NCBI GenBank assembly: GCA_015143295.1 | Contig: CM026551.1 | Span: 9,196,499-9,260,498, forward strand | Length of the DNA stretch: 64,000 bases | From: Tetracentron sinense | Lineage: Eukaryota; Streptophyta; Magnoliopsida; Trochodendrales; Trochodendraceae | Reading direction: 5' to 3' | In this document: one piece after another, positions 20,761-61,690 of the stretch | Layout: each line of letters starts with the position of its first letter | Numbering within the stretch: the stretch's first letter is position 1 | Notes under the pieces: model-generated | What the model saw: only the letters and a program-made list of their open reading frames with translations | Databases searched by the model: none | Told to the model about the DNA's origin: nothing | Program-made: the position numbers and the translations under genes

Positions 20761-20761
20761 A

Positions 20762-22312: not shown

Positions 22313-22324
22313 CATTTATTTTTT

Positions 22325-22800: not shown

Positions 22801-22829
22801 CATCCATTAACACTACCAAGCTCTCTAAC

Positions 22830-24337: not shown

Positions 24338-24344
24338 GGGGGAG

Positions 24345-24596: not shown

Positions 24597-25240
24597 AGGT
24601 CGCTTTTCAGTGACATCTCTAGTTCAGATGCTTGGGTCCAGTCCATCAGCCCCATTTCCTAACAGGACTGTGTGGAATCCTAACATTCCATCTAAAGTAT
24701 CTTTCTTTCTATGGAATGCAGCTTTGAATAAAATACTCACATGGGATCACTTGAAATCTAGAGGGTGGAGGATGGTTAATCATTGTTTCATGTGCCTCCA
24801 AGAGGAAGAGTCCGTCAATCACCTATTGTTGCATTGTCAAATAGCAAGTGAGGTTTGGAGTTTCTTTCTATCTCGTTTGGTCATGAATTGGTTATTTCCC
24901 TCTTCCCTTCACAACTTATTATCCTGTTGGAGGGACCTGGTGGGGACGACTCATGGAGGGGTATTTGGCGAGACTTGTCGTGGTCCATTTGGAAGGAAAG
25001 GAACAAGAGAGTATTTGAAAACTATTCCTCATCCCTCAAACAGATTTGCACTCATACTTGGGAATACTACATGCCTAATTTTGTATGGGGTTTGAGGGGT
25101 TGATATTAGGAACTTATACGGCTCATAAGCCTTCCGCTTGTTATCTTCTAGCATTGGCTCATAACCTCGTGAGCCATGCTTTGTCCTTATCTTAGTAGGT
25201 TTGATTTACTTTTTTTAATATTATTGCATGGATTACCGAA
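24597..25240 (+). pseudogene. LINE 3' end: zf-RVT region and poly(A)
   Basis: The open frame at 24610-25095 contains WNPNIPSKVSFFLWNAALNK, WDHLKSRGW and the Cys/His zinc-finger pattern HCFMCLQEEESVNHLLLHC, typical of the zf-RVT domain at the C-terminus of plant LINE ORF2. A 3' UTR follows, with CTTATACGGCTCATAAGC-like sequence, and it ends in A10 near 25240. The endonuclease and reverse transcriptase domains are absent (5' truncated, then cut by the Copia LTR). The poly(A) abuts the first unit of the tandem array. Confidence 0.8.
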
Positions 25241-26371
25241 AAAAAAAACTATATTACGATACAATTAACTAACAAAAAATAGCACTGCAATATTCTAATT
25301 ACGATAATTTACCGAGATTAAAGCAGAGACCGAAAGGATGTCATCGACAGCAGCACATACGAAAGTTGAAAGGTAGCAGACTGCTACAAGCAACCTAGGG
25401 TAATAGGCCCATAAGCAGAAGTGGCGAGTCCCAACTGTTCCATATAGCACACATGTTTGTCGTTGTAAATTAAGGAGTGCATAAAAAATATTTCATAATC
25501 AGTTTCTAACATAGAAAATTTTATACAAAAAATGACATAAAAATATAAGACTTAAAAGTACAAGAACTAAGAAGAGTACTATATTCAGATCGAGACAATA
25601 GAAGAGAATTTCCCTTAAGCAAGATATTTACTCATCATTGATTTACTCACTAAGCTAATACTAACAATAAATAAATGATAATAAAAAAAAGTATTCATAA
25701 TAAAACTAATGGGATGGCTAGCCATATACACCCCCCCCCAATAGCATGGAACATGGACAAAAACTTTAGGTTGGGGCCAAACCCAAATGTCTGTCAGACT
25801 GGAAACAATGCGACGTCTACGGACCCGTAAGTCTACCACAACAAAACCTTAAACTGCAGCAAAGACGATAGCTATATTACGATAAGATTAACTAACAAAA
25901 TTAGCACTCCAATATTCTACTTACAATAAATTTACCAGGAGTGAAGCCGAGAGGAAAAAGCAGTCATCAACTGCAGCAAAGACGATAGCTGAAGGGCAAC
26001 TGAGAACAACATGCAACATAAGTTTGATGGACCATTTGTAGAAGTCGTGGTTCCCACTCCGTTCCAAATAGCTCGCACGGTGTAGTTGTATAAAGGAGTA
26101 CTTGAAAAAAAAATTCAAAAAATTAGTTTCCTAAATTGAAAATTTTGAAGAAGAAAGAATATAAAAAATTCAGACTTACTATTAGAACTAATACGATGTA
26201 GTTTTAGAATTGAGTCACTAGAATTGAATTTCCCATAAGAAGAAAATCTACTCACCATTGTTTAACTCGCTATGGTAAATATTACCACTAGATAAATGAC
26301 AAAATAAAACTATGGCATAATAAAACTACGCGGATTACTAGCCATATAAGCCCCACAATCTCGACACAAGG

Positions 26372-26410
26372 ACAAACACTTTGGGGTGGGGCCCACACCC
26401 CAATGTTTAT
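26372..26410. promoter_or_regulatory. Palindrome with TCP-like core, recurring in old array units
   Basis: ACAAACACTTTGGGGTGGGG is followed by CCCACACCCCAATGTTTATC, forming a near-perfect ~39-bp palindrome with GTGGGGCCCAC at its centre. That resembles the binding consensus of plant TCP transcription factors (GTGGGNCC/GGNCCCAC). Related copies lie near 29290, 31820, 33773, 34507 and 35133, and weaker ones near 32740, 33408 and 61027. No transcription evidence is available, so regulatory use is inference. Confidence 0.35.
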
Positions 26411-27626
26411 CAACTAGAAACAGTGGGACTTGTACGGCCCCATGAGTCTACAACCAACAAAATCTTAAAATTAATGTTTTGACTCTAAAGTAAGACTATC
26501 TTAACTTAGGCTTTGGCTCTTTCAGCATTGGGGGACTGGTTTGGAGCCTTTTCTTTCTTTCTTGTTCAAGTTTACACTATTGTAAACTCTTTTTTTTGTA
26601 CTTCTACAATACATCTTGTAGTTATCTGCTCTTTTATTAATATATGAGCTTGTATATCGATCATAAAAAGTAAGACAAAACTTTAAATATTTTGACTACC
26701 AACTGTATTACAATAGAATTAACTAATATAAAACAACGCTGTGATTATTATAATTACGATAAACTTAATGTGTATGAAATTGAGAGTGAAAGGCAGTCAT
26801 CGATAGCAGCACAGAAGAAAGTTGAAGGGTAGCCGAGAGCAACGTTCAACCTAGGGTAATAGGCCAATAACCACACAAGCGGTGAGTCTCAACCGTTCCA
26901 TATAGCTCACATGGTGTAGTTGTAAATGAAGGAGTACATAAAAAGAAGTTCCAAAACCAGCTTCTTACATAGAAAATTTAGAAGAAAAAATGAATATAAA
27001 AATATATGACTTAAAAGTACAAGAATTAAGAAGAGGAATGCATTCAAATCGAGACACAAGAAGGGAATTTCCCTTTAGCAAGATATCTACTCATAATTGA
27101 TTTACTCACTAAGCTAAATACTAACACTAGATAAATGATAATAAAAAAAAGTATTCACAATAAAACTAATTGGGATGGCTAGCATAGAACTGGATAAAAA
27201 CTTTAGGTTGGGGCCAAACCTAAATGTTTGTCATATTGGAAACAATTCGACATCTACGGACCCGTGAGTCTACCGCAACAAAATCCTAAACTAATATTTT
27301 ATTCCTACATAAGATTAAATTTTTAAGATATTTAGATTACAAACTATATTACGATAAGATTAACTAACAAAAATAGCACTCCAATATTCTAATTACAATA
27401 AATTTACTGGGAGTGAAGCCGAGAGGAAAAAGCAGTCATCAACAGTTGAAGGACAACTGAGAGCAACATGCAGCTTAGGTTTGATTGACCATTTGCAGAT
27501 GTCGCGGTTCCCACTCCGTTCCAAATAGCTCACATGGTGTAGTTGTATTAAGGAGTACATGACAAAAAATTAGTTTCCTAAATAGAAAATTTTTAAGAAA
27601 GAAAATAAAAAAATCAGAATTAAAAT

Positions 27627-28867
27627 TGTGCAATAGCCGGCCCGGGTCGATCTCCTCCCCACATCCGTGATTTTCAACTGATGAGAAGCCGAGATCGTTA
27701 GAGTCGCCACCAATCAAAAATCCGGGTGTGATTGGTCACCCACAAATAGAAACCTCGATTTAAAAGAAAACCGAGATTGGGCCCGGGGATTCTCTTATGA
27801 GTTGGGGGAAGGTATTAGGCACCCCACCTCATTCGTCGAACGACGGTTACCTCTTAATTTTCTCCATTAAATTAATTTAAAAATTATATTCCCTTTCTTT
27901 GTTTGTCATTTTTTTATTATTTTGAGATTGGAAAGCCACCCCTCCTCAACCGAGTTAGGGTGATTTTCTCTCTACTTGCGCAGCAAAACCCCTTTCCCCT
28001 AAATCGGCGAACAGTCACGCTCTCTTCTCGACTGAGTTAAGAGGGACCCCGCCTACGTTTGGGTGGAAAAGAGACAAAAAACTACTAATAATAACAAAGA
28101 AGACTGAAATAAAGAAGTCGAAGATCTGGTCTTCCGGCCCTTTCCTTTACCCGGATTTTCTCTTCCGCACAACCGTGTAGAGGGAAATCCCTGAGCTACT
28201 AAGAGAAAGTGAGGGAAGAAGAGACTTGGACAGGTAGAAGTAGAAGATGGGAATGTAGCATACCTTTTCCCTTTTAGATCTCCAAGTGTTTTAAGAGAAG
28301 AGAATGATTCCGCGAGATCCGAACTCCGAAGGTTTTTCCCCAATGTTGGTAAAGATTACTCCTAGGTTGATAGCTTAGATGGCTGGAACTTCTGGGTTTT
28401 TTGAAGGCTCCCCCCACCCCGAAATTAGAGGTTTCTCAAAGTTATGAGTTGGCAAAGCTTGGCCTTTTCAAAGTTGAGGAATGGGTTGGGGTGAGGCTCA
28501 TTTTATAAGGTGAAAAATAAGGATTTCGCTCTTTCCGGGCGATGTGGGACTAAAAAAAATACCCCAAAACACATTGGCACGCAAAACGAGGTCGAAATTA
28601 GGATTTTCCGTAATCGCGCATTTCTAAAAGCTGCGGGGAGGGTTTTAGGCCAAACGTGGACCCGCGCCCTTTAGAAAGGCGCTGGTTAATTTTATGTTTA
28701 AAAAAAGGCCAGCCCCCTCTTGGGCTTAGTTGGTTTGGGCTTGGCCTGGGTTTTTTGGCTTTGAACTTCGATATTCTGGAGTCCGAATCTCATCGTTGCT
28801 CTCTTTCAATACTTGGCACCAATGGGCTTTTCGGGCCCATGAAATCATGCAAAATAGGGTGTCTACA
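27627..28867 (-). mobile_element. Solo LTR (Tat-like Gypsy), 1.24 kb, inside the array
   Basis: The block starts TG (27627) and ends CA (28867), flanked by AAAAT (27622-27626) and AAAAC (28868-28872), a 5-bp duplication with one mismatch. On the minus strand it begins TGTAGACACCCTATTTTGCA and contains GGTGGCGACTCTAACG near its far end, like the LTR at 11447-13822. The array sequence resumes in register on both sides. No coding region; the open frames at 28053-28343 (-) and 28656-28889 (+) have no known family. Confidence 0.7.
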
Positions 28868-29953
28868 AAAACTACTAGAACTAATATGATGTATTAGTAG
28901 AATTGAGTCACTAAAATGGAATTTCCGATAAGAAGAACATATACTTACCATTGTTTAACTCGCAACGCTTAATACTACCACTAGATAAATGACAAATAAA
29001 AGTATGGCATAACAAAAGTACGGGGATTGCTAGCTATATATAAAATCGAGAGCGAAAGACAATCATCGACAACAACACAGACAAAACTAGATGGGCATCC
29101 GAGAGCAACGAGCAGCCTAGGGTTAATGGCCCATCAACAGAAGTGGTGATTCCAAATCGTTCCAGATAGCTCATATGATGTAGTTCACATACAAAAAGAA
29201 TTCAAAGTCTGTTTCTTGCATAACAAAAGTATGGGGATTGCTACTAGCTATATACGCCCACAATCATGACACAAGGACAAACACTTTGGGGTGTGGCTCA
29301 CACCCCAATGTTTGTGAAGTGTACGACCCATGAGTCTACAAGCAACAAAATCCCAAAATTAATATTTTGATTCTAAAGTAAGACTAAACTTTAAAATTTT
29401 AGATTATCGACTGTATTACACTACAATTAACTAACATAAAACAGTAATGTAATTATTATAATTACGATAAGCTTACCATGTATGAAATCGAGAGTGAAAG
29501 ACAGTTATCATCAGCTGCACAGACGAAAGTAGAAGGGAAGCCAAGAGCAACGTGCAGCCTAGGGTTAACGGCCCATCAGTAGAAATGGTGATTCTAAACC
29601 GTTCCATATAGCTCACATGATGTAGTTAACATACAAAAAGAATTCAAAATCTATTTCTTGCATAGAAAAAATTCAAAAACAGAAGGAATATAAAAAATAA
29701 GACATAGAAGTACCAGAACTAAGAAGAGGATTGTATTCAGATCGAGTCACTAAAAGGGAATTTCCCTTAAGCAAAAAATCAACTCACCATTGATTTATTC
29801 CCTTAACTAAATACTAACAGTAGATAAATGACTAAAAAAAACATATTTCACAATATAATTTAAGGGAATGGCTACCTATATATGCTCCCCTTAGCATGGA
29901 ATAGATAAAAATTTGGGGTGGGGCCGAAACCCAATTGTTTGTCATACTGGAAA

Positions 29954-30443
29954 TAAGGGTGTCAATGAGCCGAGCCGAGCCTTAAAAGTGAGCTTGAAAA
30001 ATAAACAAGCCGAGCCTGAACAAGTGGCTCAACTCAGCTCGGCTCGATTAATCTTATAATAATACCTTTAAAAATTATATTATATATTTAGTATACCTTT
30101 TTTTGGTAAAATTTGTATAGTATACATTAACATAATTATTTTTGTTTAAGTTTTAACTCAGGCTTTCATGTGAGTCACATGACATCCCAAAGAAAAAAAA
30201 ATGTCCTTTTAATTTTTATTTTTTTTTGAATTTAGTGCTTATCAATGTATTTAAAAAAAAGAAAAAAATTATCGAGCCGAGCCGAGCCAAGCCGAGCTCA
30301 AGCTCAATGATCTATGGACGAGCCGAGCCGAGCCGAGCTCGAGCCTCTGTAAAATTCCAACGAGCCGAGCCAAGCTCGAGCCTCTGTAAAATTCCAATGA
30401 GCCGAGCTTGAGCAGTGCCCAGCTCGGCTTGTTGACACCCCTA
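29954..30443. mobile_element. hAT-type MITE with 8-bp target duplication
   Basis: The termini TAAGGGTGTCAATGAGCCGA and (reverse complement) TAGGGGTGTCAACAAGCCGA form inverted repeats. The flanks are ACTGGAAA (29946-29953) and TCTGGAAA (30444-30451), an 8-bp duplication with one mismatch, as made by hAT transposases. The interior is AT-rich in the left half and has GAGCCGAGCC-type repeats in the right half. Short open frames across it are compositional. Confidence 0.75.
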
Positions 30444-30905
30444 TCTGGAAACAATGGGACGTCTACGGCCCCGCGACTCTACAACAACAAAATCTTAAAA
30501 CTAATATTTTGATTCCAAAATAAGAATCAACGATAAGAAATTTAGATTGCAAACTCTATTACGATAAGATTAACAAACAAAAATAGCACTGTAGAATTCT
30601 AATTACAATAAATTTACCGGGAGTAAAGCCGAGAGCAAAACGTAGTCATCGACAACAACAAAGACAATAGCTGAAGGGCAGTTGAGAGCAACGTGCAACT
30701 TAGGATTGATGGACCATTTGCAGAAGTCGCGGTTCCCGCCCAGTTCCAAATAGCTCACGTGGTGTATTTGTATATTGATGGGGTACATGAAAAAAGAATT
30801 CAAAAATTACTTTCTTAAAAACCAAAATTTTGATGAAAGAAAGAACATAAAAAAATCAGACATAAAACTACAAGAAATAAGACAATGTAGTATTCAGATT
30901 GAGTC

Positions 30906-31651
30906 GTACACACTGAGTGTTTTGTACACACTGAGTGTTTCAATACTCAGTCGTACATTTGATGTCGGCAGATGCTAATTTTGATATATGTGCTCCCTGT
31001 CCATGGGTTGAGGAAGACTATGGTGAGAAGGAGACTACGGTGGAGGCTAGAGATTTGGACAAATGGCCTTACGAGGCTTATTTCTGAGTGTCAGAAGAGA
31101 GAGAATGTGTATACTTTTGAAGAGTGGGCCGGACCACTCTTACTTTTGGTTTTGCTGTAAATAAACTCTTGGAATACTGTTTATTGTATAAAGTTTTAGC
31201 TTCCGCTGTAGTATGCCTTGTATTCTTTTACGGGATGATTTAATTTAATAGGACAAGTCATGAGTCAAAGTATCTTAACTCCTAAGGGGTATTTTGGGTC
31301 GTGACATGCCCAATTAGAATCTGAATCTGATTATATTTTTAAGATCCGAGTCTGATCCGGATTCAATCCGATTAATGTTAATTTTAAAAAAAAACTCTAT
31401 TTAATAATATAAAATTTTAATAGGACCTTATTTAACTCCAATTAATGTTACTTTTTTCAATATTAATATTTTAGCATAGAAAATCTATGTAATATATTTA
31501 AAATGATTTTAAAAAGTTATTATAATCGGATCGGGTCACCATATATCCGGATCCGTTCCGATTATAATCGGATTTCATCTTAGTAATCTGATCCGGCGGA
31601 TCACTAATAGGGTCCAGAATCCGGATCCGATCCATTGAGTATTGATAGCCC
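30906..31651. mobile_element. Composite insertion: LTR-end fragment plus GGATCCGATCC-rich MITE
   Basis: The array is interrupted between GAGTC (30901-30905) and TAGTC (31652-31656). The left half ends GGGTATTTTGGGTCGTGACA (about 31287-31306), like the LTR end at 34405. The right half (to ~31651) contains CGGATCCGATCC-type inverted motifs and ends ATTGATAGCCCTA, like a hAT-type MITE terminus, but no matching left terminus was found. Two tandem TACACACTGAGTGTTT copies lie at its left edge. Confidence 0.45.
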
Positions 31652-34149
31652 TAGTCACTATAATGGAATTTCTCTTCAGAAGAACATCTACTCACCATTG
31701 TTTAACTCATTACGCTAAATACGAACACTAGATAAAAGATAAAAAAAAGTATGGCATAATAAAACTAAAGGATTGCTAGCCATATACGCCCACAATATCG
31801 GCACAAGGATAAACACTTTGGGGTTGGGCCCACACCCCAATGTTGGTCGTACTGAGAAATAGTGGAACGTGTACAGCCCCACGAGTCTACAAGCAACAAA
31901 TTCCTCAAGTTAATATCTTGATTGTAAAGTAAGACTAAACTTTATATTTTTAGATTATCAACTGTATTACGATACAATTAACGAACATAAAATAACACTG
32001 TAATAATATAATTACGATAAGCTTACCGGGTATTAAACTGAGAGCAAAAGGCAGTCATCAACAACAACATAAACGAAAGTTAAAGGACAGCCGAGAGCAA
32101 TGTGCAGCATAGGGTTAATGGCCCATCAACAGAATTGACGATTCGAGACCATTCCATATAGCTGGCATGGTGTGCTTCTAATGAAGGAATACATATAAAA
32201 AAAATATTAAAATCAGTTTCTTAACTATAAATTTTGAAGAAATAAGGAATCTAAAAAATATAAAACTTAAAAGTACAAGAACTAAGAAGAGGCTTGCATT
32301 TAGACCGAGTAACTAGAAGGGAATTCCCATTACAATAAATTAACTCACCATTGATTTACTCACTAAGCTAAATACTCACCTTGATGGACAATTTGTAGAA
32401 GTCGCGGTTCCCGCCCCGTTCCAAATAGCTCACACGGTGTAGTTGTATAATGAAGGAGTACATGAAAAATAATTCAAAAAATTAATTTCTTAAATAGAAA
32501 ATCTTGAAGAAACAAAGAATAAAAAAATCAGACTTAAAACAAGAACTAAAACGATTATTCAGATTGAGTCACTAAATGGAATTTCCCATAAAAAGAACAT
32601 CTATTCACCATTGTTTAACTCACTACGCTAAATATTAACACTAGATAAATGATAAAAAAAAAGTATAGCATAATAAAACCAAGGGGATTGCTAGCCATAT
32701 ACGCCCCCACAATCACAACACAGGGACAAAAACTTTAGGGTGGGGTCCACACCGCAATATTTGTCGTACTAGAAATAGTGGGACGCGTATAGCTCTACGA
32801 GTCTACATGCAACCAAAATCCTAAAATTTCAATTTTGATTCCTAAGTAAGACTAAACTTTTAAATTTTAGATTATCAACAGTATTACGATACAATTAACT
32901 AACATAAAAGAGCACAACAATATTACAATTACGATAAACTTACCGGGTACGAAACCGAGAGTGAAGACATTCATTAAAGGCAGCACATGCGAAAGTTGAA
33001 GGGCGGCCGAGAGCAATGTGCAACCTAGGGTTAATAGCCCATCAGCAGACGTGGCGATTCCAGACCGTTGCATATAGCTCACATGGTGTAGTTCTAAATG
33101 AAGGAATACGAATAACAAAAATATTCAAAATCAATTTCTTACATAGAAAATTTTGAAGAAAGAGAATATAAAATATAATACTTAAAAGTACGATAACTAA
33201 AAAGAGGATTGTATTCAGATCGAGTCACTAAAAGGGAATTTCCCTTAGGCAAGACATCTATTCACCATTGATTTACTCACTTAGCTAAATACTAACACTA
33301 GATAAATGATTTAAAAAAAAAAAAACATATTTCACAATATAATTTAAAGGAATGGCTAGCAATATACACCCCCCCCCCCACTAGCATGGAATAGACAAAA
33401 ACTTTCGGGTGGGGACCAAACACAATTGTTTGGAATAGATAAAGACAGTGGGACGTCTACGACCCCACGAGTCTACAGGTACAAAATCGTAAACTAATAT
33501 TTTTATTCCAAAATAAGATTTAACTTTAAGAAATTTAGATTACAAACATTATTATGATAAGATTAATTAACAAAACTAGCACTACGGTATTCTAATTACA
33601 ATAAATTTACTGAGAGTGTGTCAAGAGCAAAACATAGTCATCGACAGCAACAAAGACGACAACAAAATACTAACACTGGAAAAGGATAAAAAAAAAGTAT
33701 GTCATAATAAAAGTAAGATGATTGCTAGCCATATACACCCCCCACAATCTCGGCACAAGGACAAACACTTTGGGGTGGGGCCCACTTCCTAATGTTTGTT
33801 GTACTAGAAACAGTGGGACGTGTACGGCCCCGAGTCTAGAAGCAACAAAATTCAAAAATTAATATTTTTAATCTAGAGTAAGAATAAACATTAAATTTTT
33901 AGATTATCAACTGTAATGCAATACAATTAACTAACAGAAAACAACTTTGCAATATTCTAATTACGATAAACTTACCAAGATTGAAGTAGAGAGCAACGTG
34001 CAGCCTAAGGTAACAGGCCCATAAGCAGAAGTGGCGAGTCTCGACCGTTCCATATAGTTCATGTAGTGTAGTTGTAAATGAAGGAATACATAAAAAAAAT
34101 CCAAAATCAATTTCTTACATAGAAAATTTTGAAGATAGAACACTAGATA

Positions 34150-34405
34150 GGTGGCCCTATTCTGATTACTGGTGAGCGTGGTGAGAGAGAGATACATGTA
34201 TTTTGATAAGCGGGGAATATCCGCTTTAAACTTTTATGCTGTATACATTCTATTAGTTCAGACAGGGCTATATGTACATGTTATGTTTTAGAAATTTTAG
34301 TTCCGCAATTTGGATGCCTTGTATGTTTTATGCAGGTTGGTATTATATGATTTAGGTCACGTGCAAAAAGTCTCCTATCTTCTCGGGGTATTTTGGGTCG
34401 CGACA
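34150..34405. mobile_element. LTR-end fragment inside the array
   Basis: A foreign block starting GGTGGCCCTATTCTG interrupts the unit and ends GGGTATTTTGGGTCGCGACA, nearly the same ending as the block at ~31306. This suggests two copies of one Gypsy-type LTR end. No clear target duplication; the array also lost sequence on the left side. Confidence 0.45.
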
Positions 34406-35300
34406 AAACACAAGATAAATGATTAAAAAAAAAGTATAGCATAATAAAACTAAGGGGATTGCTAGCCATATACGCCCCACAAACTCGGTACAAGGACAAA
34501 CACTTTGGGGTTGGGCCCACACCCCAATGTTTTTCGTACTAGAAATAATGGGACGTGTACGGGCCCACGAGTCTACACGCAACAAAATCCTAAAATTAAT
34601 ATTTGATTCTAAAGTAAGACTAAACTTTATACTTTGAGATTATCAATTGCATTACGATACAATTAACAAACATAAAATAACATTGGAATATTATGATTAC
34701 GATAAACTTACAGAGTATGAAACCAAGTACGAAACATAGTTATCAATAGCTGCACAGACGAAAGTTAAAAGGAAGCCGAGAGCAACGTGCAGCATAGGGT
34801 TAATGGCTCATCAGCAGAATTAGCGATTCTAGACCGTTCCATATAGCTCACATGGTGTAGTTCAAAATGAAGGAATACATAACAAAAAAAATTCAAAATC
34901 AGTTTCTCAAATGGAAAATTTTGAAGAAATAAGGACTATAAAACATAAAACTACGAGAAGAGGACTACATTTAGATTGAGTCACTATAAGAGAATTTCAC
35001 CTACTCACCATTGATTGACTCCCTAACAAAAATAATCACTAGATAAATGATAAAAAAGTTGGTCATAATAAAACTAAGAGGATTGGTAGCCATATACACC
35101 GCCACAATCTCAGCACAAGGACAAACACTTTGCGGTGGGGCCCACATCCTAATGTTTTTCGTACTAGAAACCATGGGATAGGTACGGCCCCATGAGTCTA
35201 CAAACAACAAAATCCAAAAATTAATATATTTAATCTAGAAAAAGGCTAAACTTTAAATTTTTAGATTATAAACTGTATTGCAAAACAATTAACAAACATA

Positions 35301-38300
35301 AAATAGCATTGCTATATTATAATTACGATAAACATACCAAGATCGAAGCAGAAAGGAACGTGCAACCTAAGGCAATAGGCATGCAAAAGTGGTGAGTCTC
35401 GACTGTTCCATATAGTTCACATAGTGTAGCTATAAATGAAGGAGTAAAAAAAAAATCAAAATCAGTTTCTAGCATAGAAAATTTTGAAGAAAGAATGTAC
35501 ATAAACATAGAAGACTCAAAAGTACAAGAACTAAAAACGGAATTGTTTTCAGATCGTGTCACTATTGTTTTCAGATCGTGTCACTAGAAGGGAATTTCCC
35601 TAAAGCAAGAAATCTACTTACCATTGATTTACTCACTAACCTAAAAATCACCTTGATGAACCATTTGCAGAAGTCGTGGTTCGCGCCCCGTTATAATGAA
35701 AGAGTGCATGAAAAGTAATTCAAAAACTAAGTTTCTTACATTGAACAACAAAATCCTAAAATTAATATTATTAATCTAGAATAAAACTACACTTTAAATT
35801 TTTAGATTATCAACTGTATTGCAATATTATATTTACAATAAACTTACCAAGATCGAAGCAGAGAAGAACGTGCAACCTAAGGTAATAGGCATGCAGAAGT
35901 GGCAAGTCTCGATTGTTCCATATAGGTCACATAGTGTAGATGTAAATGAAAGAGAAAAAAAATCAAAATCAATTTCTTACATAGAAAATTTCGAAGAAAG
36001 TAGGTATATAAACATAAAAGACTTCAGAGTACAAGAACTAAAAACAGAATCGTATTCAGATCGAGTCACTAGAAGAGAATTTCACTTAAGCAAGACATGG
36101 ACTTACCATTGATTTACTCACTAACCTAAAAATCACCTGGATGAACCATTTGCAGAAGTCGCGGTTCACACCCCGTTCCAAGTAGCTCACACGGTGTGGT
36201 TGTATAATGAAAGAGTGCATGAAAAGTAATTCAAAAAATTAGTTTCTTAAATAGAACAACAAAATCCTAAAATTAATTGTTTAAATCTAGAATAAGACTA
36301 AACTTTAAATTTTTAGATTATCAACTGTATTGCAATACAAATAACTAAAATAAAATAGCACTGCAATATCACAATTACGATAAACTTACCAAGATCGAAG
36401 CTGAGAGGAACGTGCAACATAAGGTAATAGGCATGCAGAAATGGCGAGTCTCGACTGTTCCTTATAGTTCACACAGTATAACTGTAAATGAAGGAGTAAA
36501 AAAAAAATCAAAATCAATTTCTTATGTAAAAAATTTTGAAGAAAGAAGGTATACAAACCTAAAAGACTTAAGAGTACAAGAACTAAGCACAGAATCGTAT
36601 TCAGATCGAGTCACTAGAAGGGAAATCTACTTAGCATTTATTTACTCACTAAGTTAAAAATCACCTTGATGACACCAATGATTTACTCACTAACCTAAAA
36701 ATCACCTTGATGAACCATTTGTAACAGACGCGGTACACGCCCTGCTCCAAGTAGCTCAAACGATGTAGTTGTATAATGAAAGCGTGCATGAAAAGTAATT
36801 CAAAACACTGGTTTCTTAAATAGCACAAAAAAATCCTAAAATTAATATTTTTAATCTAGAATAAGACTAAACTTTAGATTTTTGGAATGTCAAATGTATT
36901 GCAATACAATTAACTAACATAAAATAGAAGTGCGGTATTATAATTACAATAAAATTACCAAGATCGGAGCAGAGAGGAACGTGCAACCTAAGGTAATAAG
37001 CATGCAAAAGTGTTGAGTCTCGACGGTTCCATATAGTTCACATAGTGTAGCTGTAAATAAAGGAGTAAAAAAAAAATCAAAATCAGTTTCTTACATTGAA
37101 AATTTTGAAGAAAGAACGTATATCAACATAAAAGACTTAAAAGTACAAGAAATCAAAACAGAATCGTATTCAGATCGAGGCACTAGAAAGGAATTTCCCT
37201 TAAGCAAGACATCTACTTATTATTGATTTACTCACTAAGCTAAAAATCACCTTGATGAAATTTGCAGAGGTCGCGGTTTGCGCCCCATTCCAAGTAGCTC
37301 ACACGGTCTAGTTGTATAATGAAAGAGTGCATGAAAAGTAATTCCAAAAATTAGTTTCTTAAATAGAACAACAAAACCCTAAAATTAATATTTTTAATCT
37401 ATTATAAGACTAAACTTTAAAATTTTAAATTATAAACTGTATTGCAATACAAATAACTAACATAAAATAGCACTGCAATATTATAATTACAACAAACTTA
37501 CCAGGATCGAAGCAGAGAGGAACGTGCAACCTAACGTAATAGGCATGCAAAAGTGGCGAGTCTCGACTGTTCCATATAGGTCACAGTGTAGCTATAGATG
37601 GAGTAAAAAAAAAATCAAAATCAGGTTCTTACATAGAAAATTTTGAGGAAAGAAAGTATATAAACAAAAGCAGAGCGGAACGTGCAACCTAAGGTAATAG
37701 GCATGCAAAAGTGGCGAGTCTCGACTGTTCCATATAGGTCACAGTGTAGCTGTAAATGAAAGAGAAAAAAAAAATCAAAATCAGTTTCTTACATAGAAAA
37801 TTTTGAGGAAAGAAGGTATATAAAAAAAAAAGACTTAAAAGTACAAGAACTAAAAACAGAATCGTATTCAGATCGAGTCACGAGAAGGGAATTTCCCTTA
37901 AGGAAGACATGTACTTACCATTGATTTACTCACAAGGCAAAAAATCACCTCGATGAACCATTTAAAGAGGTCGCGGTTCGCGCCCCGTTCCAAGTAGCTC
38001 ACACGGTGTAGTTGTATAATGAAAGAGTGCATGAAAAGTAATTCAAAAAATTAGTTTCTCAAATAGAACAACAAAACCCTAAAATTAATATTTTTAATCT
38101 AGAATAAGACTAAACATTAAATTTTTAGATTACAAACTTTATTGCAATAGAAATAACTAACATAAAATTGCACTACAATATTATAATTACAATGAACTTA
38201 CCAAGATCGAAGCAGAGAGGAATGTGAAAGCTAAGTTAATAGCCAGGCAGAAGTGGCAAGTCTCGATTGCTCCATATAGGTCACAGTGGAGCCGTAAATG

Positions 38301-45603: not shown

Positions 45604-45611
45604 CTAGTGAG

Positions 45612-47977: not shown

Positions 47978-47982
47978 ATTAA

Positions 47983-50460: not shown

Positions 50461-50465
50461 ATTAA

Positions 50466-52913
50466 AGAGAACAAAATCAGGTAAACTGGTAAAACACAAG
50501 TGGAGTCATGGAGTCTCATGAAGTGGTAGATATATCCGAAAGGTATGACCCACTTCAATTTATTTTTTAAACTGACACCACAAATAAGGAGGAAGATGAA
50601 AAGTTTATGACAAAACTTTCTCCTGTGCGTCTTTAAGGAACCAAAGGAACCCAAAGTTCTGCTCAATGCAGCCCCAAACAATCTGAAATAATGGGGTTTA
50701 ATGTCCCCAAGTCTAATCGACCTTCAACCACAAAACAACCATAGAATCAAGGTATTTTAAAGAATAAGGATCTGCTGAGTCTGCGACCCATAGAACAACC
50801 CAAAACTACGACTATAAATCTAGATAACAGTAACCTAATGACCCTCGAATCGTAATAAAATCTGAGTTTGTCTAACTCTAGACAACAGACCATTAATAAA
50901 GAAACATAAACTTCGGGTTCATGACAATACCAGTATAAAAACCGTAAAAAAAATAGAGCATAGAGCTCCCCATTTTCAAAATCAGACTTCCAAGAAATCA
51001 TAACATGAAAGAGGTGGGAACCATTGCTAACATGAAATATGTTAAGAGACATAAACGTGACTCTTTCTACATTGGACTCTTAAGACATGAATGGTAGACA
51101 AGATTCGTTAGTGAGTATTTTTTTCCTTTTTGGGTAAGAAATTTACCTGGTCTAAGTGTTGAAATAGGAGCTCTCATCCAATATGAGATAAATGGGAAGA
51201 ATTTCTTGTTCAGTGACCTGAAAGAAGTGGAACAATCTCAATTTCTTCACAAATGCAAACTCAACCATGAGTTTATAAGAGCATGACAAGTTACCTATAA
51301 CTTACAATTTCTTCAAGATTTTCACAAAAGCAAGCATGTGAAAATTCCTCCAGATTAACATATAAGAATCTCTCAAGTATCCATCAATATTTCTCTCTTC
51401 CCTTTTCTTTTTTCCCTCTATATTTGTATGAAAGTGAAGTTCAAGGAAGCTGTAAGTTAAAAGAGAAAACAAAAACCATTAACACTTCATTTTGTTATGT
51501 ACGGAAAATTGAAAAAGATAACAGTCAAGTCACCAAGTTATTTCAATAAACAAGAGAACTGAGACCACATATTTAGCAACATCTCCCACAAATGCGACCA
51601 TATTTAGTGATATTTTTACTTGAGGAATACTCAAGCAGTTTAGCTTATGTAGTGTCTACAGATACTCATCAATTGGGTAAATTGTTGCTTACCAAATACC
51701 GATTCCATGACATAAGGAAATCGTCAACACATGAGCAAATCATGTGTAGTACATCGCAACAACCTTTGCTTGAGACCAGATTCATATATTAAGCTGCACG
51801 AGCAAAAATATATAAGACTAATCAAAGGTATTAAAACTATCAACTTTAAACAATAAGAAAAAGAAAAGTTGTAAATAAACCTCTCATAAACACAAATCCT
51901 TTGTACATTTTATAGGAGAAATGGATCATCAAAAGGCACTGTAACTGTAACTGGACCATCAATATGGCTTAAGCTCCTCTTTTCAAGCATTCTAACCATG
52001 AGTAAAATAATAAAATTTATAAGTACCACAAGAAACAAAGGTTGATGTAATGCTTGATATAGATATTTAGCATTCCACAAATGTAGAAGCACAAATGTAG
52101 AAGCCCCTGAAATCTATGTATATAAAAATTCACAATCAAAAATTGATCTGAAAATACCTAAATATATAGGACACCACATGAAAAGTATAAATACTTCCCC
52201 CATTTTTCTCATCTGGATAAAACAATAACCCTCATAAAAAATGGTAGGACATTGAATAAGAGAATGCACCAAACTTCTCAACTGCTATCCGGACATCTTC
52301 AAGACTTCAATCCGTGTCGTGCTTGTGAAGGGGGCACCCCAACGACACTAAAAAAAAAAAAATTAAATAGAGACAGTGAAGAAGATAAACAAAAAGAAAG
52401 GGGAGTTGGCCGTTGGAGAGTAGAGAGAAGGGACACAACATCGATGGCGTGCTCTAAAACAATGGTAGGCAAAAATGGGGCGTAGGCAATGGGAACTCAA
52501 TGAGAAGCAAGTGGAAGGAATGAACTCCTTAGATGTGGAAGCATCCGGAAAAGAACGGAGGAAGAATCTAGAAATGGGATATAAATGGAATTTAGACCAA
52601 AGATGTTAGACGAAGAATATAATGGAGGGGCATTTTAAGCCTCTTTTATAATGGTTATTGGCATATAGACTACAAATACCAAAAGTGAAATATCAAACAC
52701 TAATAAAGGTCATACTGAATCCAATAAAAGTTTTTTATACGGAATAAGAATTCTTACTCAGTATTTTGGAATAAGAATTCTCACAGATAAAAGTATTCGA
52801 AACAAGAGTCTTCTTGATATTTGAATCAAAAGGACAGTTTGCTTTCAACAATATTGTGCGGCATTATCATATTATAATGTGCAAGCAATGGAACAAAAGG
52901 TAAGCTAACTTAC
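50466..52913. other. Helitron D interior: no gene identified
   Basis: AT-rich. A minus-strand piece MVRMLEKRSLSHIDGPVTVT (from about 52000) and one near 51590-51780 containing DDFLMSWNRYL look exon-like, but neither is recognised. Confidence 0.3.
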
Positions 52914-52969
52914 ATCTACTGCATCAGTACCCTTATCCATAAGGTCAATCTTTGTCAAGATCCTCTCTC
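52914..52969 (-). pseudogene. Captured exon of a dynamin-related protein (GTPase G4 motif)
   Basis: On the minus strand a 56-bp exon is bordered by an acceptor (TTCTCAG) and a consensus donor (GTAAGT from 52913). It reads ILTKIDLMDKGTDAVD, the G4 region of the dynamin GTPase domain, in which TKxD contacts the guanine base. Plant DRP1-type dynamins, which act in membrane scission and cell-plate formation, carry nearly this sequence. The acceptor region is duplicated just upstream (CTCTCTCCTGAGAAGTAAAA twice, 52962-53008). I found no neighbouring dynamin exons, so this is a lone captured exon inside Helitron D. The short length limits certainty, but exact splice borders support it. Confidence 0.6.
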
Positions 52970-53009
52970 CTGAGAAGTAAAATCTTTGAACTCTCTCCTG
53001 AGAAGTAAA

Positions 53010-54216
53010 ATCATTGAAATTGAAATTTCAAACACATAAAAGGCCAAAGTTGACTATAATTATGCAATCATAATCTTAATAGGTAAAAATCTATTAGAAC
53101 ATAGAGAGTCAATATTCTCAAATGGAAAGTCTCAAACTTTCATACTTGTAATGATATGATTTTGAAGCATTTGAACATATCTCTTATAGTTTTTCTAGCC
53201 GGAATGCAGCCGAGCTTGAGGTGAAAGTAATTCTGAGGTGGAGTAATAAAACAAGGTCTACTTGACCAGAAGGACAAAGTTATATAAGCTTAACTTTGGA
53301 GTCTACTTCACATGTGATTTTAATTGAATCAGAGGTTGGCAGGTAAAATTGATAAAATTATACAGTTGGGCTGCAAAGCAAAGGATAGAATTGAGCAGAC
53401 AAAAGAAAGTCCCTGTAAAACTTGCTTCTAAAATATGAGTGAATATGAGAATTACAAAACGAAACAGGAATCTAACGAGGAAAATTAAAACAGGGATTTG
53501 TCATTTTGCTCAAGGATTAAAGACCCTGTTTTGGTAAGCAAATCACCAAATAAATCTTACTCAATTAGAATCACATATCCGAAGTATAGAAAAATATATA
53601 GAAACATTACCCCCTAAAAATATCTTTTATCCAATTAATATCCTTATTTTTTCCCTCTATAGCAAATCCTTAAGGCTCTATTCTTTTAGTGGAACTTTTA
53701 AAGTCCAGAATTTTCATTGTTTCATTCCTTTAATGTTTAGAACTATATTATTCAAAAGAGTGCAAAAGTTCTGCAAATATGGAACTTTAAACTTCCAATA
53801 ATTTTTATTTTATTTTTTTAAGTTCCATAGATGTGGAACTTCTATTTAAATTGAACTTGATAAATCTGACATACCATCTAGTAAAAGGGTTAGAAACTCT
53901 CTCCCCTCTCTTACCATACTCTTACCTCTTGTTCCAAAACATTAATATTCCTAACTTTTAAAAGTTCCACCAAAAGAACGGAGCCTAATGGTTATTCGAC
54001 TATTTTTTTTTCTGTTCTTTTCTCCAATGGAGCTATTCTTCTGCTTCTTCTTCAAGACAAAGTGGTCTTCTTGAATACCAGGAAGAAAAATCAATAACCC
54101 AAAATTTTTTAAAAATGATCAGCAATACCCACATTGGCAGAGAACTCAAATCTAATTAACATAAATATGCATAAATCTAAACAAAACCCTAATGCAAAAG
54201 AAAATCCATAAATAGC
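53010..54216. other. Helitron D interior: no gene identified
   Basis: AT-rich, with a stretch at about 53680-53990 rich in GGAACTTTTAAAG/AAAAGTTCCA motifs. These form loose inverted repeats and may represent a small MITE (GTGGAACTTTTAAAG near 53690 and CTTTTAAAAGTTCCAC near 53956). Confidence 0.3.
53677..53990. mobile_element. Possible MITE (inverted GGAACTTTTAAA ends)
   Basis: The left end reads GGCTCTATTCTTTTAGTGGA then ACTTTTAAAG. The right end reads CTTTTAAAAGTTCCACCAAA then AGAACGGAGCC, which is close to the reverse complement. The inverted ends are ~30 bp and the interior is AT-rich with more TTCCA/TGGAA motifs. A target duplication was not resolved (TAAGG..TAATGG on the flanks). Confidence 0.5.
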
Positions 54217-54400
54217 TTACTTAGTCTTTCTATCATCTGTGGTAGTCACAAAGCGAGGGAGGAAAACACCCGTCCCTCCAGATCCCCTCACAAAACCGTC
54301 CATCCCATTTACCTGAAAGGGATTAAAATAGATTTGAAACCGGTTTTGCTGCCATGGTAAAACCCTAGCTCTTGTTTGCACAAAGTTCTCAACCTGCAAA
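54217..54400 (-). pseudogene. Exon-like fragment with GTGVFLPR motif
   Basis: The minus strand reads VENFVQTRARVLPWQQNRFQ then FVRGSGGTGVFLPRFVTTTD. The GTGVFLPR motif occurs, from memory, in uncharacterised plant proteins with short conserved tails. The frame is open for 70 codons, but start and end are not convincing. It lies near the 5' end of Helitron D, where captured leaders are common. Tentative. Confidence 0.3.
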
Positions 54401-54826
54401 CAACAATAGCAAGGAAAAGATAAACCCAAACCCTAATAAAAAAAAATACGAAAAGAGAAAATCAAACAAGAACCCATTCCCGGTTTCTTCAGGCTTCTCG
54501 CTCTTCACCCGAGTTTGAGCAGATTTGATCGTATGATAATGGTATAAACGAACACCGGAAGGATGAGGAAAAAAAGAATAATACCATTTTTTCACTGGAG
54601 CGCATCAAGAAGGGATCAATGTTGCTGGAGCGCATGAAAAGGGGTTGATGTTGTGGGCGAAGGAGAGGAGGGAGCAAGGGACTCAACTCATTTGGAAGCA
54701 TCTGGAAGAATGGAAGGACCGAAAGAAACTTAATTATGGGTGGGATATGAATGGAATTTTGAAAAAAGAGTTGAGACGAAATTTATAAATTGAGGGCAAA
54801 ACAAGCCTCTGTTCAAGGGTTATAGA

Positions 54827-57800
54827 TACGACTCAACTTTAAATTTTTAGATTATCAAATGTATTGCAATACAATTAACTAACATAAAATAGCACTGCGA
54901 TATTCAAATTACGATAAACTTACCAAGATCGAAGCAGAGAGGAACATGCAACCTAAGGTAATAGGCATGCAAAAATGGCGAGTCTCGACAATTCCATATA
55001 GTTCACATAGTGTAGCTATAAAGGAAAGAGTAAAAAAAAATCAAAATCAATTTCTTACATAGAAAATTTTGAAGAAAAAAGGTATATAAACATAAGAGAC
55101 TTAAAAGTACAAGAACTAAAAACAGAATCATATTCAAATCGAGTCACTAGAAGGGAATTTCCCTTAAGCAATAAATCAACTTACCAATTATTTAGTCACT
55201 AAGCTAAAAATCACCTTGATGAGACCAATGATTTACTCACTAAGCTAAAACTCACTGTGATGAACCATTTGCAGAAGTTGCAGTTCGTGCCCTGTTCCAA
55301 GTAGCTCACACAGTGTAGTTGTATACTGAAAGAGTGCATGAAAAGTAATTCTAAAAATTTGTTTCTTAAAAATAGTACAACAAAATCCTAAAATTAATAT
55401 TTTTATACTATAAAAATACTAAAGTTAAAATTTTAAATTATCCAATGTATCGCAATACAATTAACTAACAAAAAATAGCACTCCGATATAATAATTACGA
55501 CAAACTTACCGAGATCGAAGCAGAGAGGAACGTGCAACCTAAGGTAATAGGTATGCAGAAATGGCGAGTTTCGACTGTTCCATATAATTCACATAGTTTA
55601 GCTTTCAATAAAGGAGTGAAAACAGAATCGTATTCAGATCATGTCACTAGAAGAGAATTTCCCTTAAGCAAGACATCTACTTTCTACTGATTTACTCACT
55701 AAGCTAAAAATCACCTTGATGAACCATTTGCATAAGTCGTGGTCCATGCCCCGTTCCAAGTAGGTCATACGGTCTAGTTGTATAATGAAAGAGTGCATGA
55801 AAAGTGATTCAAAAAATTAGTTTCTTAAATAGCAAAACAAAATCCTAAAATTAATATTTTTAATCTAGAATAAGACTAAACTTCAAATTTTTAGACTATC
55901 AAATGTATTGCAATACAATTAACTAACATTAAATAGAAGTGTGTTATTATAATTACGAAAAACTTAACAAGATCGAAGCAGAGAGGAACGTGCAACCAAA
56001 GTTAATAGGCATGCGAAGTGTTGAGTCTCAACGGTTCCATAGAGTTCACATACTGTAGCTGTAAATGAAGGAGTAAAAAAAAAATCAACATCAATTTCTT
56101 ACAAAGAAAATTTTGAAGAAAGAAGGTATATAAACATAAAATACTTAAAAGTACAAGAAATAAAAATAGAATCGTATTCAGATCGAGTCACTAGAAGGGA
56201 ATTTCCCTTAAGCAAGACATGTACTTATTATTGATTTACTCAACAAGCTAAAAATCACCTTGATGAACCATTTGCAAAGGTCGCGGTTCGCGACCCATTC
56301 CAAGTAGCTCACACGGTGTAGTTGTATATTGAAAGAGTGCATGAAAAGTAATTCAAAAAATTAGTTTCATAAATAGAACAACAAAATCCTAAAATTAATA
56401 TTTTTATTTTAGAATAAGACTATACTTTAAGTTTTTAGATTATCAATTGTATTCCAATACAAATAACAAACCTAAAATAGCATTACAACAATATTATAAT
56501 TACAATAAACTTACCAAGATCGAAGCAGAGAGGAACGTGCAACCTAAGGTAATAGCCATGCAGAAGCGGCGAGTCTCGACTGGTCCATGTAGTTCACATG
56601 GTGTCGCAGTAAATGGAGTAAAAGAAAAATACAAATCAGTTTCTTCTGTAGAAAATTTTGTAGAAAGAAGGTATATTAACATAACAAACTTGAAAATACA
56701 AGAACTAAAAACAGAATCGTATTCAGATCGAGTCACTAGAAGGGAATTTCCCGTCAGCAAGAAATCTACTTACCATTGACTTACTCACTAAGCTAAAAAT
56801 CACCTTGATGAGACCATTGATTTACTCACTAAGCTAAAAATCACCTTGATGAACCATTTGCAGAAGATACGGTTCGCGCCCTGTTCCAAGTAGCTGACAT
56901 GGTGTATTTGAAGAATCAAAGAGTGCATGAAAAGTAATTCAAAAAATTAGTTTCTTAAATAGAACAACAAAATCCTAAAATTAATATTTTTAATCTAGCA
57001 TCAGACTAAACTTTAAATTTTTAGATTATCAAATGCATTGCAAGACAATTAACTAACATATAATAGAAGTGTGATATTATAATTACGATAAACTTACGAA
57101 GATCGAAGCAGAGAGGAACGTGCAACCTAAGGTAATTGGCATGCAGAAGTGTTCAGTCTCGACGGTTCCATATAGTTCACATAGTGTAGCTGTAAATGAA
57201 GGAGAAAAAAAAAATCAAAATCAGTTTCTTACATAGAAAAGTTTGAAGGAAGAAGGTATATAAACATAAAAGACTTAAAAGTACAAGAAATAAAAACAGA
57301 ATCGTATTCAGATCGAGTCACCAGAAGGGAATTCCCTTAAGCAAGACAACTACTTATTATTGATTTACTCACAAAGCTAAAAATGACTTTGATGAACCAT
57401 TTGCAGAGGTCGCGGTTCGCGCCCCGTTCCAAGTAGCTCCCATGGTGTAGTTGTATAATGAAAGAGTGCATGAAAAGTAATTCAAACAATCAGTTTCTTA
57501 ATTAGAACAAAAAAATCCTAAAATTAATATTTTAAATCTAGAATAAGACTAAATTTTAAATTTTTAGATTATCAAATGTATTGCAATACAATTAAGTAAC
57601 ATAAAATAGTACTACGATATTATAATTGCGATAAACTTAACGAGATCGAAGCAGAGAGGAACATGCAACCTAATGTAATAGGCATGCAGAAATGGCGAGT
57701 CTCGACTGTTCCATATAGTTCACATAGTGTACTTGTAAATGAAGGAGTAAAAACAAAATCAAAATCAATTTCTTACATAGAAAATTTTGAAGAAAAAAGG

Positions 57801-60480
57801 TATAAAAACATAAAACACTTAAAAGTACAAAGAACTAAAAACATAATCGTATTCAGATTGAGTCACTAGAAGGGAATTTCCCTTAAGCAAGAAATCTACT
57901 CACCATTGATTTACTCACTAAGCTAAAAATCACCGTGATGAATCATTTGCAAAAGTTGCGTTTCGCGTCCCGTTCCAAGTAGCTCACACGGTGTATTTGT
58001 ATAACGAAAGAGTGAATGAAAAGTAATTCAAATTGTATTGCAACACAATTCACTAACATAAAATAGCACTGCAATATTATAATTACGATAAACAAACCAA
58101 GATCGAAGCAGAGAGGAACGTGCAACCTAAGTTAATAGGCATGCAGAAGTAGCGAGTCTCAACCGTTCCATATAGTTCACATAGTGTAGCAGTAAATGAA
58201 AATTCTGAAGAAAAAAGGTATATAAAAATTAAAGACCTCAAAGTATAAGAACTAAAAACAGAATCATATTTAGATCGAGGCACTAGAAGGGAATTACCCG
58301 TAAGCAAGACATCTACTTACCATTGATTTACTCACTAAGGTAAAAATCACCTTCATGAACCATTTGCAGAATTCGCAGTTTGCGCCCCGTTCCAAGTAGC
58401 TCACACGGAGTAGTTGTAAATGAAAGAGTGCATGAAAAGAAATTCAAAAAATTAGTTTCTTAAATAGAACAACAAAATTCTAAAATTAATATTTTTAATC
58501 TAGAATAAGACTAAACTTTAAATTTTTAGATTATCAATTGCATTGCAATACAATTCACTAACATAAAATAGCACTGCAATATTATAATTACGATAAACAT
58601 ACCAAGATCGAAGCAGAGAGGAACGTGCAACCTAAGGTAATAGGCATGCAGAAGTAGCGAGTCTCGACTGCTCCATATAGTTCACATAGTGTAGCAGTAA
58701 ATGAAAGAGAAAAAAAAATGAAAATCAGTTTTACATAGAAAATTCTGAAGAAAGAAGGTATATAAACATAAAAGACCTCAAAGTATAAGAACTAAAAACA
58801 GAATCATATTCAGATCGAGGCACTAGAAGGGAATTACCCGTAAGCAAGACATCTACTTACCATTGATTTACTCACTAAGGTAAAAATCACCTTCATGAAC
58901 CATTTGCAGAATTCGCGGTTTGCGCCCCGTTCCAAGTAGCTCACACGGAGTAGTTGTAAATGAAAGAGTGCATGAAAAGAAATTCAAAAAATTAGTTTCT
59001 TAAATAGAACAAAATCCTAAAATTAATATTTTTAATCTAGAATAATACTAAACTTTAAATTTTTAGATTATCAACTGTATTTCAATACAATTAACTAACA
59101 AAAATTAGCACTGCAATATTATAATTACAATAAATTTACCAAGGCCGAAATAGAGAGGAACGTGCAACCCAAGGAAATAGGCATGTAGAAGTGGTGAGTC
59201 TCGATTGTTACATATAGTTCACATAGTGTAGTAGTAAATGGAGTAAAAAAAAAATTAAAATTAGCTTACATAGAAATATTTGAAGAAAGAAGGTATAAAA
59301 ATAAAAGACTAAAAAGTACAAGAACTAAAAATAGAATCGTATTCAGATCGAGTCACTAAAAGGGAATTTACCTTAACATCTACTTACCAATGATTTACTC
59401 ACTACGCTAAAAATCACCATGATGAACCATATGCAGAAGTCGTGGTTCGCACCCCATTCCAAGTAGCTCACACGGTGTAGTTGTATAACGAAAGAGTGCA
59501 TGAAAAGTAGTACAAAAAATTATTTCTCAAATAGAAGAACAAAATCCTAAAATTAATATTTTTAATCTAGAATAAGACTAAACTTTAAATTTTTAGATTA
59601 TCAACTATATTGGAATACAAATAACTAACAGAAAATAGCACTGCAATATTATAATTACGATAAACTTACCAAGATCGAAGCAGAGAGGAACGTGCAACCT
59701 AAGGTAATAGGCATGCAGAAGTGGCGAGTCTCAACTGGTCCATGTAGTTCACATAGTGTAGCAGTAAATGAAGGAGTAAAAAAAAAAATCAAAATCAGTT
59801 TCTTCTGTAGAAAATTTTGAACAAAAAATGTATATAAACATAAAAGACATAAAAGTACAAGAACTAAAAACAAAATCGTATTCAGATCGAGTCACTAGAA
59901 GGGAATTTCCCGTAAGCAAGAAATCTACTTACTATTGATTTACTCACTAAGCTAAAAATCACCATGATGAGACCATTGATTTACTCACTAAGCTAAAAAT
60001 CATCTTAATAAACCATTTGCAGAAGACGCGGTTTGTGCCCTGTTCCAAGTACCTCACACGGTGTATTTATATAATAAAAGAGCATGAAAAGTAATTCCAA
60101 AAATTAGTTTCTTAAATAGAACAACAAAATCCTAAAATTAGTATTTTTAATCTTGAATAAGACTAAACTTTAATTTTTTAGATTAACAAATGTATTGCAA
60201 TACAATTAACTAACATAAAATAGAAGTGTGGTATTATAATTAAGATGAACTGACCAAGGTCGAAGCAGAGAGGAATGTGCAACCTAAGGTAATGGGCATG
60301 CAGAAGTGTTGAGTCTCGACGGTTCCATATAGTTCACATAGTGTAGCTGTAAATGAAGGAGGAAAAAAAAAATCAAAATCAGTTTCTTACATAGAAAATT
60401 TTGAAGAAAGAAGGAATATAAACATAAAAGAGTTAAAAGTACAAGAAATAAAAACATAATCGTATTCAGATCGAGTCACT
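54827..60480. repeat. Tandem array, central homogenised part 2 (~11 units)
   Basis: This continues the 35.3-45.6 kb array beyond Helitron D. Marker sites lie near 54987, 55577, 56033, 56577, 57167, 57706, 58164, 58667, 59207, 59732 and 60319 (steps 456-590 bp). The extra ~40-bp segment reappears near 55217, 56807 and 59967. Units around 58164 and 58667 share unit-specific variants (CCTCAAAGTATAAGAAC, AATTACCCGTAAGC), showing local duplication of one monomer. Confidence 0.9.
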
Positions 60481-60481
60481 A

Positions 60482-60553
60482 GATAAGCAAAGAAATAAAT
60501 AATGGATAAGCAAAGAAATAAATAATGGATAAGCAAAGAAATAAATAATAATA
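60482..60553. repeat. Minisatellite, 24 bp x3
   Basis: GATAAGCAAAGAAATAAATA plus ATG is repeated three times at the junction between the homogenised array and the old right-edge units. Confidence 0.85.
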
Positions 60554-61690
60554 ATGAATCTTACCGTGAGTGAAGCCAAGAGTAAAAAGCAATCATCGGT
60601 AGCAGCTCTAACAAAAGCCAAAGAAAAGCTTCAGGTAAGTCGAGAGCAATCGTCAACATAGGGTAAATAGCCCTTTTGTAGAAGTCGTCGGTCATGCCCC
60701 GTTCTATATTGCTCGCATGGTGTAGTTGTATAATGTAGGAGTACATAAAAATTTTCAAAAAATCAGTATTTTATCAAAATTTTGAAGAAAGAGAGAATAC
60801 AAAAGTATAAGACATATGTACAAGGACTAAGAAGAGGATTGTAGTTGGACTGAGTCACACTAGAAGAGATTTTTCCTTAAGCAAGACATCCACTCACCAT
60901 TCATTAACTTGCTAAGCTAAATACTAACTCTTGATAAATGATAAAAAAAAAGTAACCTCAATAAAACTAACCAGAGTGCTTGCAATAGACGCCTCTCTTT
61001 CTTTCCACAAGGACAAACACTTTGTGATGGGGCCCGCACCCAAAGTGTTTGTCGAACTGGTAAGATTGAGACGTCTATGGCCTTGTGAATCTACAAGTAG
61101 CTGAATCCAAAGAGTAATATTTTTTCTAAAATAATATTCAACTATAAAAAATTTATATTATCTAAAGAAAGATTAAACATACATTTCTATTACGATAACA
61201 AATTAAATACTAATGTAACTAACAAATTAATTAACTAAATTATATACTAACAACACTAACACTGAAGAAGAATTAGATTATTAACAAAAAATAATGAAAG
61301 AAAAAAGAAAAAACCGTTACTGAAGCTGATTGTAAGGTGCCGCCTAGAAGTAGTAATAGTCCTTTTTCAAAAGTCAATGATTCTGCATCGTAGTTTCTAG
61401 ATATTTCCAAATGTGTAATAAACTATTTTAGCAAATTAATCAAATTTATAAAATAAATAAATCAAATTATTAACTACACAAGATTAGAAAAGAAATAAAA
61501 CAAAATAATGAATCTTACCGTGAGTTAAGTCCAGAGCGAAAGGCAGTCATCGACAGCAGCTCAAGCAAAAGCTTTAGGGAAGTCGAGAGCAAGGCGCATC
61601 CTAGGGTAAATGGCCATTTGGCAACGGTCATGCCCCGTTCCATATAAGCTCGTATGGTGTAGTTGTAAAAAGGAGTACAATTTCTCCAGA
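60554..61690. repeat. Tandem array, right (old) edge, two diverged units
   Basis: Two units (about 60554-61140 and 61505-61690) resemble the old left-edge units. They have CTTACCGTGAGTgAAG, GGCAGTCATCGACAGCAGC, CATGCCCCGTTC.ATAT and GTAGTTGTA, plus a palindrome variant near 61027. The minus frame at 60561-60758 (HHASNIERGMTDDFYKRAIY) is the longest version of the array's recurring minus-strand frame and ends at a donor-like CACG|GTAAGATT. I do not recognise it. The ~360 bp between the two units is AT-rich. Confidence 0.75.

Follow-up and report, generated by a model that had tools for sequence, protein, structure and literature searches.

A stretch of 64,000 nucleotides from contig CM026551.1 of Tetracentron sinense (the window) carries a tandem array of 36 kb, extending from 25247 to about 61680, with a core of ~543-bp units at 35346-60483. 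Its units follow one another head to tail over a long distance, as those of satellites do, and we consider it very likely that this is an old, layered array of satellite type, shaped by two deletions, amplification and decay, whose family is known here from one locus. Each core unit represents a dimer from which two deletions have removed sequence, and one copy at the left edge (32028-32944) has the first fusion and not the second deletion.

Layout of the array and anatomy of its units

When the window was compared with itself by BLAST (E<=1e-10), 764 off-diagonal matches were found, each pair counted once; among the matches listed of at least 150 bp, three lay outside the array. Thus, the large tandem array described in an earlier note on this DNA is real and well beyond chance. 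The self-match offsets of the core that were closest to one unit amounted to 541-544 bp, which agrees with the step of ~542 bp reported there for the central units, and the core units used were 505-586 bp each where not cut short. When one monomer was aligned to the window, ~543-bp units were located at 35346-60483, broken by 45604-54826, and further monomer pieces at 25246-35345 and 60672-60938. The left block of the core (35346-45603) comprises monomers m01-m19, with a trimeric higher-order repeat, and the right block (54827-60483) comprises the remainder of m19, monomers m20-m29 and one partial monomer. Part-monomers are joined abruptly at about 37669, 42944, 55611-55637 and 58030. Our alignment of 28 monomers omitted the part-monomers at 37510-37669, 42626-42942, 55518-55637, 58030-58105 and 60263-60483 as well as the right remainder of m19; m01, m15, m19, m21, m25 and m26 were kept in spite of being shortened.

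Both edges (25.2-35.2 and 60.5-61.7 kb) were more diverged than the core, and self-BLAST, monomer alignment and module BLAST all bore out the diverged edge units previously placed at 25.2-35 and 60.5-61.7 kb. On the basis of module BLAST, alignment and a tree of 71 E modules, the left edge (25247-35345) consists of ancestral-type units with several insertions, in the order A B A B A A B A B A (partial) A A. At the right edge (60484-61680), a 23-bp sequence repeated three times (60482-60549) precedes a single diverged copy of the ancestral type and a fragment of another; 13 of the 14 edge copies that were aligned came from the left edge. An A/B dimer step of ~1,457 bp had been proposed for the edges. 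It was recovered between the B copies at 26022 and 27479, in the outermost dimer on the left, but not near the core, where the copies run A, partial, A, A without alternation.

Edge copies have the order E-A2-x-T and occur in A and B types; the fuller ones are about 610-670 bp long, and one B copy reaches 827 bp. In the core unit, A (E plus A2; consensus positions 1-283) is followed by the E part of B (284-401) and then by T (402-543). A2 continues as CTAAATACTAACAC in the two edge A copies inspected at this point, and E starts with TTGATGGACC in the two B copies inspected. The core has instead a fused A2-to-E junction, TCACCTTGATG, which is identical in the copy at 32028-32944, where A2 of an A copy is joined to E of a B copy. 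Behind B, this transitional copy still possesses A2 and x, both of which the core lacks. The idea that the central monomer is a compressed dimer is thus supported by module order and by the shared fusion junction.

The position of the B part of the transitional copy in the tree was also informative. The rows in the tree of 71 E modules were short (130 columns kept) and its bootstrap had not settled. One branch set apart the 30 rows of core A (97/93) and another the 28 rows of core B (99/97), and edge A and edge B rows fell next to their own type. All 28 core B parts together had as their sister the B module of the transitional copy, at 32379 (98/85); for core A, the sister was the A module at 34024, weakly supported (82/41). 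The median end branch was 0.075 in 13 edge rows and 0.047 in all 71, and two core rows were also long-branched (0.25 and 0.16). The expectation that a monomer phylogeny would give longer branches at the edges was therefore borne out, the edge units being older with longer ends, these two core rows aside.

Segment x of the ancestral units (for example, 26313-26451 and 34440-34576) forms an imperfect palindrome of ~130 nt around GTGGGCCCCAC, which was not found in the core. As RNA, its consensus formed a good fold (-58 kcal/mol), and 12 single copies gave -26 to -58 kcal/mol; folded as DNA, three copies had z-scores of -2.23, -1.14 and -0.89. We regard it as the relic of an inverted repeat, possibly of a MITE.

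The array appears to be non-coding, judging from its reading frames: one of the 12 window frames of at least 120 aa lies in it (56399-56779, 126 aa). No reading frame was common to all copies among the 14 edge stretches translated. A coding origin of the unit was rejected: in these 14 edge stretches, the open parts of the minus strand are in differing frames, and open runs of ~46 codons are not unusual in random sequence. An RNA gene was also rejected, with no Rfam match at gathering score over the window; one match, to isrF, somewhere within 25000-45700, was far under the cut-off (E=0.1, 19.5 of 40 bits). A ribosomal spacer or telomere repeat could be discarded as well, since the window contained neither an rRNA gene (Rfam) nor a run of at least two telomere units (TTTAGGG). 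Both window strands lacked an exact match to the CENP-B box. Exact searches with core-unit stretches returned nothing from viral contigs or prokaryote genomes, from which records of the source genome were possibly omitted. No report of such a satellite was recognized among the papers listed by literature searches, which is not proof of absence.

Trimeric periodicity, divergence and age

Eight of the 28 aligned monomers carry a ~41-bp tandem duplication, the first at 36640-36717 and the other seven at about 40082, 41750, 43701, 45375, 55183, 56772 and 59930. A tandem repeat scan detected six of them and a junction search of the window, with three mismatches allowed, detected all eight, with junctions at 36669, 40118, 41784, 43737, 45411, 55219, 56808 and 59967, all in core units. 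The carriers have common variants at six further columns. Successive junctions are 3449, 1666, 1953, 1674, 9808, 1589 and 3159 bp apart. The spacing of 1953 still represents three monomers, owing to a partial duplication of one unit at about 42.6-43.2 kb. The spacing of 9808 crosses a 9.2-kb insertion and connects the neighboring carriers m19 and m20, so the three-monomer phase slips at the insertion. In addition, m07 and m26 lack the duplication, though the period predicts carriers there. Thus, an extra segment of ~40 bp in every third monomer, as suggested earlier, describes the eight junctions mostly, but not at the insertion, m07 or m26.

We also examined 95 informative variants in the 28 monomers (5000 permutations, 29 lag tests, mostly-gap columns excluded); this test replaced a first one with 139 features, which was inflated by the 41-bp columns. 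Monomers three apart shared variants in excess, both among all 28 (p=0.0006) and in m06-m19 (p=0.0002, the floor of 5000 permutations), so that third monomers are more alike than neighbors. At lag 6 the sharing had p=0.02 in either set, and at lag 1 there was no excess. Within the right block (m20-m29), lag-3 sharing was not significant (p=0.39). BLAST of 37668-42942 gave 89.6% identity at an offset of 1622, compared with 84.5% at 542 and 85.8% at 1083, the last two values being depressed by gaps at the 41-bp piece. The trimeric higher-order repeat is therefore real but weak: the proposal holds for m06-m19 and for the whole set, but the signal is not significant in the right block.

The mean pairwise identity of the 28 core units was 0.873-0.887 at every lag, and each unit was 89.7-95.4% identical to the consensus, making a nearly star-like set. 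Since core units are ~88% alike and neighbors are no closer than distant copies, the array is a relic that is no longer freshly homogenized, and the homogenized centre claimed for it was overstated. Two near-copy pairs show that some duplication continued later, namely m26/m27 (95.6% identical) and the part-monomer at 42662-43227 with its near copy (95%).

Core monomers depart from the consensus at 6.8% per site. Transition rates were 11.4% at CG, 9.3% at CHG, 3.6% at CHH, 2.1% at A and 1.9% at T, and transversion rates were 1.4%, 5.8%, 5.2%, 2.6% and 4.1%, respectively. The excess of CG and CHG transitions would fit long cytosine methylation. Methylation is only part of the decay, because transversions are numerous (535, more than the 452 transitions). 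Plant substitution rates are about 0.7-1.5e-8 per site and year; at such rates, 6.8% would place the amplification, very roughly, several million years back. When the unit was divided into 28 bins of 20 bp, the changes as a whole were unevenly distributed (p=4e-5), with a slight unevenness also at A/T sites (p=0.037); no constrained block was seen in the unit, as singletons at A/T sites were evenly spread over these bins (p=0.81).

We favor the following course of events. An ancestral tandem repeat of ~0.62 kb would have given rise to A and B types arranged as dimers. A first deletion would have joined A2 of an A copy to E of the B copy that followed it, and a second would have removed A2 and x behind the fused B copy. 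The ~543-bp product was presumably then amplified and passed through a trimer stage, with the 41-bp tandem duplication in one of the three monomers; exchange between copies out of register would be expected to produce this, as would amplification based on replication. Later, amplification would have nearly stopped and the copies drifted, with the CG and CHG transition excess that cytosine methylation would give; mobile elements inserted as well, including the 9.2-kb Helitron-like element in one monomer. Of these points, the analysis shows the anatomy, the order in which the forms arose, the trimer in the left block, the insertion and the mutation bias; the exchange mechanism, a position in heterochromatin and the lack of a selected function are inferred.

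Insertions and surroundings

The 9.2-kb region at 45604-54826 is one insertion into one monomer (m19), not array sequence. Monomer positions in the one-monomer alignment continue from 436 to 438 across it, its flanks are AATCTAGAA and TACGACTC where the consensus reads AATCTAGAATAAGACT, and the flanks joined side by side match the monomer consensus. Nothing else in the window matched the insertion at E<=1e-4, so the gap left at 45.6-54.8 kb in the earlier account of the array centre is not array. Helitrons insert between A and T without target duplication, start with TC at the 5' end and end with CTRR at the 3' end. The insertion, which lies on the minus strand, has all of these features: placed between A and T without target duplication, it starts with TC (TCTATAACCC, ending at 54826) and its 3' end (CTCACTAG) has CTAG at 45604 before a T, the boundary being slidable by one base. 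A 3' hairpin that convinces was not seen, nor a helicase domain in the frames scanned. Of its 19 frames of at least 70 aa, 10 were scanned and no Rep-helicase or anything else above the Pfam cut-off was found, the one weak match being to DUF1659 (E=0.013); two stretches folded for the hairpin had z-scores of -0.63 and +0.34, no better than shuffles. Non-autonomous Helitrons are without a Rep-helicase gene. A 71-aa minus-strand frame of the insertion (54217-54432) with NGMDGFVRGSGGTGVFLPR looks like an exon piece and may be a captured gene fragment, with no Pfam match. The insertion also holds a 51-bp tandem repeat of 4.7 copies (49442-49682).

Three smaller insertions were recognized in the left edge. 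One of 1.24 kb (27628-28867), whose junctions were inspected, has TG...CA-like ends with no exact target duplication and is perhaps a solo LTR. Another of 488 bp (29957-30444), flanked on each side by CTGGAAA, has GGGTGTCAA...TTGACACCC as its inverted ends, and we take it to be a hAT-like MITE. The third, of 747 bp (30906-31652), has AGTC on both sides.

Frames near the array include RVT_2 (copia-type) and copia-type gag fragments and a zf-RVT frame, which stops about 150 bp left of the array; zf-RVT is a mobile-element family characteristic of plants. After this LINE-type frame, an A-run (25236-25246) is found at the left end of the array; no target duplication was found in 15000-25230. A 39-bp tandem repeat of two copies, containing CGACCGGCTGGTCCGGT, is located at 15320-15398. 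No clear array unit could be identified outside 25.2-61.7 kb, the best flank matches being 67% over about 100 bp. The best left-flank match had E=1e-4, compared with 1e-3 in a single reversed copy of that flank, a control that preceded one of 40 random sequences per flank. Just past the right end, an A-rich 67% match to segment A2 (61949-62039) was equalled by none of 40 random sequences and may be the last decayed remnant of the array. A similar A-rich 67% match at 14394-14483 was reached by one of 40, and its status as a remnant is doubtful. Within the 9.2-kb insertion, nothing stood out as an array unit (the best match was reached by at least 4 of 40 random sequences).

Alternative origins and comparison with known systems

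An origin inside a mobile element, in which a short tandem repeat of a retrotransposon or other element expanded into the array and the units are element parts, appears unlikely. The left end of the array adjoins the LINE-type zf-RVT frame and A-run, and in Lathyrus sativus, tandem arrays within LTR retrotransposons were the source of nine of the 11 major satellites (PMC7004042). Our array resembles the satellites described there in lying beside retroelement sequence, but differs in that no retroelement containing the unit was found in the window. Moreover, no reverse transcriptase or transposase frame of at least 120 aa lies between the units, and the flanks offer nothing beyond the 67% matches mentioned above.

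It is considerably less probable that the ancestral unit was the duplicated 5' end of a minus-strand gene (promoter, first exon and splice donor) and the array a decayed gene array. At five places in edge copies (u01, u05, u06, u08 and u10), TGGGCC/T is followed on the minus strand by AACCCTA or ACCCTA, motifs that to us resemble site II and the telo box, and a donor-like GGTAAG stands directly after E in the consensus unit. However, these motifs were picked after the sequence was seen, the promoter-like ones occur in 5 of the 14 edge copies and in no core unit (whole window scanned), and the 14 translated stretches have no frame in common. An array or trimer produced by collapsed or mis-joined repeats in the assembly is very unlikely: the abrupt part-monomer joins might point to it, but core monomers differ by ~12%, far above copies of one read, there are no N runs and the sequence of the 9.2-kb insertion is absent from the rest of the window.

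The layered satellite array that we favor belongs to a known kind, and the surviving intermediate is its appealing feature. Its combination of traits had been thought unusual; an old monomer layer at the edges with a younger higher-order repeat inside has been published for human centromere 8, for which the models discussed are unequal exchange or break-induced replication (PMC8997354). The likeness lies in this arrangement, with the oldest monomers at the edges. Compared with centromeric arrays of this type, ours has only 36 kb, a ~543-bp unit and ~88% identity, and shows neither fresh homogenization nor a CENP-B box.

Usually, the origin of a satellite unit has to be reconstructed from dispersed copies. 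In this array, the order of the two deletions and of the trimer that followed them is readable within 36 kb, which makes the array a tidy worked example and not a new principle. It is conceivable, though we lean against it, that the locus is the birthplace of its satellite and that every copy found elsewhere in the genome would go back to this core. If so, the A/B dimer, the single-deletion intermediate and the final compressed unit would still be together at the place of origin.
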